From: Motacilla alba alba
Lineage: Eukaryota; Chordata; Aves; Passeriformes; Motacillidae
DNA length: 64,000 nt
Direction of reading: 5' to 3'
Assembly (NCBI RefSeq): GCF_015832195.1
Contig: NC_052028.1
Location: 7,421,501-7,485,500 of the forward strand
The notes under the pieces are model-generated. The model was not told where the DNA came from. It did no database searches and saw nothing but the letters and a program-made list of their open reading frames with translations. The position numbers were made by a program, and so were the translations under genes. Shown here one piece after another: positions 57,600 to 58,125 of the stretch (position 1 is its first letter; each line of letters starts with the position of its first letter).

Positions 57600-58125
57600 C
57601 GACTTTCAGAGGCTGCACCGGGAGCTCACAAGGCCCAGCCCGGGTGCAGGAGCCGGCAGGGCCGGAGCGGAGCGGGCGCTCCCGCACGGGCGGCACCGCT
57701 CCGAGCCCGCACCCGCCCGCGGCAGGGGGAGGAGGAGGATGAGGAGGAGGAGGAGGAGAAGGGAGCGCCGAGGGCCGGGCAGGGACTCGCCGGCAGCCGC
57801 TCGCCCCGTGCCCGCTGCCAGCCCCGCTCACCTCCCGCGGGGCGCCCGCCGCCCCCGGCCCCGCTCCGGCCGCGGCCCCGCTCCGTGCCACACCGCTCAC
57901 CGCTTTCGCTTTCCCTTTCCCGGCGAAGGAGGGGCGGCCCCGGCTGCCGGCCGCCCTCGGGGAAGGGTCTGCGGGAACAGGGGCGGGGGGAGCCCGGGGG
58001 GACCGGCCCGGAGCCAGGGGCGCGCCGGGGCTGCGAGCACAGCGGCTCCGCCGGCCGCCTCTCACACCGCGGGCTTGGCTCTGCCCCAGGCGCCCGACCG
58101 CGATTGTCCCCCGACCTGCAGTAGG
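57600..58125 (-). promoter_or_regulatory. Orphan CpG island with IRF-response element
   Basis: About 525 bp of very high G+C and CpG, standing alone in the gap between IRF1 and SLC22A5. On the minus strand it holds GAAAGGGAAAGCGAAA (57919-57904), three GAAA units at the two-base spacing IRF proteins bind. About 70 bp further along the minus strand is a strong splice donor, GGGAG|GTGAGC (GT at 57831-57830), and another GTGAGC lies beside the element (57900-57895). This looks like promoter plus first exon of an interferon-responsive transcript running toward IRF1. No protein is evident. The long frames on both strands are compositional. Confidence 0.6.
57904..57919 (-). promoter_or_regulatory. 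Triple GAAA IRF-response element
   Basis: Read on the minus strand it is GAAA-GG-GAAA-GC-GAAA. It shares the 12-base core GGGAAAGCGAAA with the ISRE at 18220-18231. Confidence 0.65.

Follow-up and report, generated by a model that had tools for sequence, protein, structure and literature searches.

A CpG island with a tripartite IRF-type element between IRF1 and SLC22A5 in Motacilla alba: a possible avian counterpart of the CARINH/IRF1-AS1 promoter

Is the regulatory loop that ties IRF1 to a neighbouring non-coding RNA in mammals also present in birds? CARINH/IRF1-AS1 is a spliced non-coding RNA that is transcribed from the SLC22A5 side towards IRF1 (convergently), is induced by interferon or virus and raises IRF1 in cis. 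CARINH and IRF1 form a disease-linked immune loop, concerned with bowel inflammation and antiviral defence, and the descriptions that we found are in mammals only. No report of a bird counterpart of CARINH/IRF1-AS1/C5orf56 was found in the literature searched, which lay mostly outside subscription journals. An earlier note on a 64,000-nucleotide stretch of the Motacilla alba alba genome (C13:7421501-7485500, hereafter the window) proposed that a CpG island at about 57.9 kb is the avian counterpart of the IRF1-AS1/CARINH start. We analysed the island within the window and in genome-wide searches covering the whole 1.07 Gb assembly (618 contigs).

The identity of the two flanking genes, as proposed in the earlier note, was confirmed. 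IRF1 coding exons span 26473..30529 on the plus strand, as found by tblastn with a human IRF1 query, by IRF1 and IRF2 matches in the PDB and by Pfam PF00605 in two frames. The last coding exon of SLC22A5 lies at 63787..63874 on the minus strand, where it reads LEYRPPSSSTRDSKEEEENPEIFKSTA and ends in ...IFKSTAF and a stop (the last residue, the stop and the exon edges were read by eye); eight further SLC22A5 matches follow beyond the window on the same contig, at 64430-79723 in window coordinates. The island therefore lies between the 3' ends of SLC22A5 and IRF1, which is the CARINH-type placement. The sequence past the SLC22A5 stop (60085-63786) is AT-rich and contains minus-strand AATAAA signals at 62462, 61062 and 60085; the SLC22A5 3' UTR may thus be long, ending possibly about 2 kb from the island. 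At the other gene, the IRF1 promoter island contains a GAS site, TTCCCCGAA, at 25105 and a kappaB site, GGGGAATCCC, at 25199 (25105..25208, plus strand), which we take to be the STAT and kappaB sites known from the human IRF1 promoter.

The region upstream of IRF1 has features of its own. A small CpG block at 18110-18315 (GC 0.77, o/e 1.16), which precedes the IRF1 promoter by about 7 kb and adjoins a 760-bp CTGA tandem array, contains a GAS-type TTCCCGGAA at 18185 and the only ISRE of the window, GAAANNGAAACT, at 18222-18233. Judged by these motifs, this block could be a second interferon-type promoter or an enhancer of IRF1. Within another small CpG-rich block (17251-17450), two kappaB matches (17391 and 17411) surround a GAS-type TTCCCGGAA at 17397, making this NF-kB/GAS cluster (17391-17420) a candidate upstream IRF1 enhancer. 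Both the ISRE/GAS block and the NF-kB/GAS cluster are 7-8 kb upstream of the IRF1 promoter, and a CpG island (GC 0.67, o/e 0.74) is found at 16001-16650. A PDB search of 1-15 kb with one frame per strand gave no match, nor did Pfam on the minus strand of 8.3-18.2 kb.

In a 200-bp scan, the island between the two genes covers 57501-58200, with a GC content of 0.73, a CpG o/e of 0.78 and 74 CpGs. Its repeat-free core, 57562..58158, which we propose as a non-coding promoter or enhancer, has a GC content of 0.76, a CpG o/e of 0.82 and 71 CpGs. With GC and CpG o/e above 0.6 over at least 500 bp, the island has the composition of a CpG-island promoter. The CpG o/e of four surrounding stretches is only 0.08-0.12 (0.12 for 31-57 kb and 0.08-0.10 for the other three), as against 0.82 in the core, and leftwards no other island occurs before the IRF1 promoter, 31 kb off; the island is thus isolated, as the earlier note had it. 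GC boxes occur on both strands between 57718 and 57987 (57931, 57980 and 57981 on the plus strand, 57855 and 57718 on the minus strand), all as consensus matches only. No Pfam match lies in the island, and a consensus search found no GAS or kappaB match within it. Repeat fragments, presumably CR1, adjoin the island on both sides (57484-57561 and 58159-58306), as would be expected if a mobile element, such as an LTR or the 5' end of a LINE, had carried in the IRF site. This origin is very improbable. The core has no second copy within the window and a single full-length place in the 1.07 Gb assembly, and none of the other listed matches, all of them AGG-repeat or GC-rich pieces, exceeds 125 bases. 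The single copy largely refutes a repeat or LTR origin.

The minus strand of the island carries a tripartite IRF element, GAAAGGGAAAGCGAAAGC, at 57902..57919, identified as a motif match. Three GAAA units at IRF spacing had been claimed here, and the corresponding pattern GAAANNGAAANNGAAA (the loose triple) indeed has a single match in the 64 kb, at 57904-57919. The IRF-E consensus is GAAASYGAAASY, and the element matches it exactly at 57902-57913 on the minus strand, whereas the canonical ISRE, GAAANNGAAACT, has no match in the island. Since the element fits IRF-E and not the GAAACT-ended ISRE, its expected regulators would be IRF1 or other IRF proteins and not ISGF3; as read from its motif, it suits an IRF feedback better than an ISGF3 target.

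Could an ordinary CpG island have acquired a GAAA triplet by chance, with no interferon function? At least one copy of the loose triple appears in 6 of 100 shuffles of the whole window, and a strict motif, GAAANNGAAASYGAAASY, is as frequent in the genome as its reversed control (49 sites, 28+21, versus 53, 33+20). This strict form was picked after the element had been seen, and since it shows no excess, the weight of the element comes from its context. That context makes chance quite unlikely. When only the island is shuffled, the loose triple is absent from all 5000 shuffles and the IRF-E consensus turns up in one; none of the six islands found over 230 kb of this contig carries even GAAANNGAAA; and the element is nearly identical to one in the IRF10 promoter, described below. 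The IRF-E by itself is not rare, with two matches in the window and three in the 230 kb of the same contig, the latter all outside islands. Five one-mismatch triples were found in the window versus 0.77 expected, four of them outside the island. At the scale of the genome the loose triple is of no use, with 11,924 sites versus 11,274 for the control; simple repeats figure prominently in the listed places. An exact 21-mer of the element was also found in two GC-rich viral records (L001 and L002), which have only those 21 bases in common with it; we judged these matches to be due to chance.

We then considered the other sites of the strict motif. Taking 600 bases around each of the 48 other sites gave 46 stretches, one of which contains three sites. 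Four of the 47 stretches, including the IRF1-SLC22A5 island, are CpG islands (GC and o/e >0.6), that is, 3 of the 46 others; in one further stretch (L084), only some 200-bp window is island-like. One of these islands (L074) contains the first coding exon of IRF10, with a Pfam IRF match of E 1.1e-18 and IRF10 (chain 8hcl) as the best single-domain PDB match; the top PDB row is a p65/IRF7/IRF3 fusion chain, scoring two domains. The element of this IRF10 promoter, GAAAGGGAAAGTGAAAGC, is identical to the island element at 17 of 18 positions, and the ATG follows 52 bases after its start. In chicken, both type I interferon and IFN-gamma induce IRF10, as stated in a passage of PMC4718558 that cites earlier work.

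Two more CpG-island elements of this type are worth recording. One (L069:292-464) lies 107 bases before the ATG of an ORF that starts with MAPPLLCGIAALLLLRAAADTG, is signal-peptide-like and runs into a GTAAGC donor; a Pfam search of this piece gave no match. From these features, L069 is a candidate interferon-responsive gene for a secreted or membrane protein. The other (L053:292-309, on C4) is likewise tripartite and ends as a canonical ISRE does, GAAACCGAAACT.

What might be transcribed from the island between IRF1 and SLC22A5? A candidate 5' splice site of the proposed minus-strand transcript, GAG/GTGAGC, is located on the minus strand at 57831..57832, following the element by 71 bases. It scores 6.19 and ranks 14th among the minus-strand GTs of the window on a simple matrix, on which candidate donors at the ends of IRF1 exons range from 3.4 to 7.1. 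The earlier note had spoken of strong minus-strand donors just downstream; this one stands, but GCG/GTGAGC at 57900 ranks 58th, and CAG/GTGGGA at 58267, which ranks 45th, is situated upstream of the element, so that the plural was overstated. The stretch 57600..57940, which would hold the first exon and the start of the intron of the putative transcript, has no ATG on the minus strand from 57940 to 57600; the first 300 bases of such a transcript would contain none. A minus-strand transcript would meet its first AATAAA 811 bases beyond the donor, closer than the 1139 bases that separate 58100 from the first signal on the plus strand, an ATTAAA. The polyadenylation signals do not favour the minus strand, GC boxes lie on both strands, and the minus direction is weakly supported.

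The same evidence bears on two other explanations. The island might drive a gene or transcript that is unannotated in the bird and has no role at IRF1, for example on the plus strand, where a donor, AAG/GTGAAG, is present at 58130; the IRF element could still confer an interferon response. We regard this as unlikely, given that a six-frame Pfam scan of 27.3-64.0 kb found only the IRF1 domain and one sub-threshold match (Promethin, E 0.042, under the family cut-off and therefore dropped). On this result a hidden coding gene in the interval was rejected, although the scan also missed the last, short exon of SLC22A5 and the later exons of IRF1, so that small coding exons could escape it. Rfam at gathering scores gave no match in the whole window, nor did a PDB search of 56-64 kb in one minus-strand frame, to which the short last SLC22A5 exon was likewise invisible.

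Alternatively, the island may be an IRF-bound enhancer, or orphan CpG island, which makes only short, unstable bidirectional RNA and aids IRF1 by looping, with no defined lncRNA. The GC boxes on both strands are consistent with this, and so are excerpts of two studies: in one, the human IRF1AS locus acts on IRF1 as a cluster of enhancers (PMC12345190), and in the other, disruption of the locus blunts interferon responses, an effect for which the RNA itself did not account, the mature RNA being dispensable (PMC9289242). In the relevant passage of another study, RNA knock-down lowers IRF1 (PMC11707381). We consider a pure enhancer somewhat unlikely, because a good minus-strand donor lies 71 bases downstream of the element and the GC content and CpG density of the island resemble those of promoters such as that of IRF10.

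The explanation that we prefer, with evenly balanced confidence, is that the island is an IRF-responsive non-coding CpG-island promoter which also acts as an IRF1 enhancer, and that it is the avian positional counterpart of the CARINH/IRF1-AS1 promoter. For it speak the o/e contrast with the surroundings, the 0 of 5000 island shuffles, the 4 of 47 motif stretches that are islands (the others including IRF10 and L069), the interferon induction of chicken IRF10, the synteny, the leader without an ATG, and the binding of IRF1 at the mammalian promoter. In the pertinent part of PMC10156687, the mouse Carinh promoter is bound by IRF1, and Carinh and IRF1 form a feed-forward loop. The human IRF1AS is driven by a -500/+10 region, and IRF1 and IRF7 bind its promoter and raise its activity, according to the promoter passages of PMC12345190. 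In the preferred explanation, interferon or infection would raise IRF1 through the STAT and kappaB sites of its own promoter, and IRF1 (or IRF2, IRF7 or IRF10) would then bind the GAAA repeat at 57.9 kb. Polymerase would start at about 57.83-57.90 kb and proceed on the minus strand in the direction of the 3' end of IRF1, with splicing at 57831; the putative product would be a minus-strand, interferon-induced lncRNA that starts at the island. The bound and transcribed island may reinforce the IRF1 promoter, 33 kb away.

This explanation is weakened by the lack of a strict-motif excess (49 versus 53), by the polyadenylation signals, by an island free of GAS and kappaB matches, and by an LPS survey that includes birds. 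In the section concerned of that syntenic survey of 26 vertebrates, including four birds, CARINH is among 11 lncRNAs induced in mammals, while only MITA1 and LINC02605 are named as induced in birds; five lncRNAs are expressed in birds, not all of which the section names (PMC12833702). Since LPS is not interferon, the survey lowers, but does not remove, the claim of a bird CARINH counterpart. Position, synteny, CpG island and IRF-type element are as the earlier note had them, and its interpretation is partly supported: the near-identical IRF10 promoter element speaks for it, and the survey section, naming CARINH as LPS-induced in mammals and not in birds, counts against it. An element of the IRF-E type rather than the ISRE type may matter in birds, because, in the part of PMC7245633 that treats them, those chicken interferon-stimulated genes in which an ISRE was found are a minority, and IRF9, present in songbirds, is not found in galliforms according to an extract of PMC12220609.

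These observations suggest, but do not prove, that the IRF1 feedback loop also exists in birds. More tentatively, as a possibility that we hold to be doubtful, the IRF1-CARINH feed-forward loop already existed before the mammalian and avian lineages diverged; the RNA may have changed in sequence while the architecture was kept, namely a CpG island between SLC22A5 and IRF1 that serves as a promoter and holds a tripartite IRF element, accompanied in this bird by a second interferon-type hub, 7-8 kb ahead of the IRF1 promoter. If the loop is that old, what evolution preserves would be the IRF-bound island and the fact that it is transcribed rather than the RNA. The presence of such an element at this position in a bird would put a date on the loop, help to tell apart what the DNA element does and what the RNA does, and offer bird immunology a defined target of 600 bp.

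Compared with known systems, the island element shares with the canonical ISRE (the ISGF3 site) its repeated GAAA units two bases apart, but the ISRE ends in GAAACT and the island element in GAAAGC. IRF sites of the IFNB PRDIII-I type have several GAAA units at a six-base spacing, as does the island element; unlike them, it has no kappaB match in its island. The IRF10 promoter of the same genome is likewise a CpG island with a near-identical tripartite element, but opens a protein-coding exon 52 bases on, whereas the leader from the IRF1-SLC22A5 island has no ATG. CARINH/IRF1-AS1/C5orf56/ISR8 in human and Carinh/Gm12216 in mouse occupy the interval between SLC22A5 and IRF1, as the bird island does. 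The likeness of the bird island to CARINH is one of position and motif, and the island is without a kappaB or GAS match. In the promoter sections of the mammalian studies, the CARINH promoter is bound by IRF1 (PMC10156687, PMC12345190); the bird island carries an IRF-type site at which binding is putative. The human IRF1AS promoter is 86 kb from the IRF1 promoter, as given in part of PMC12345190, and the bird island is 33 kb from the IRF1 promoter of its own genome. The island would thus be, if real, a new, avian member of the known CARINH/IRF1 arrangement.
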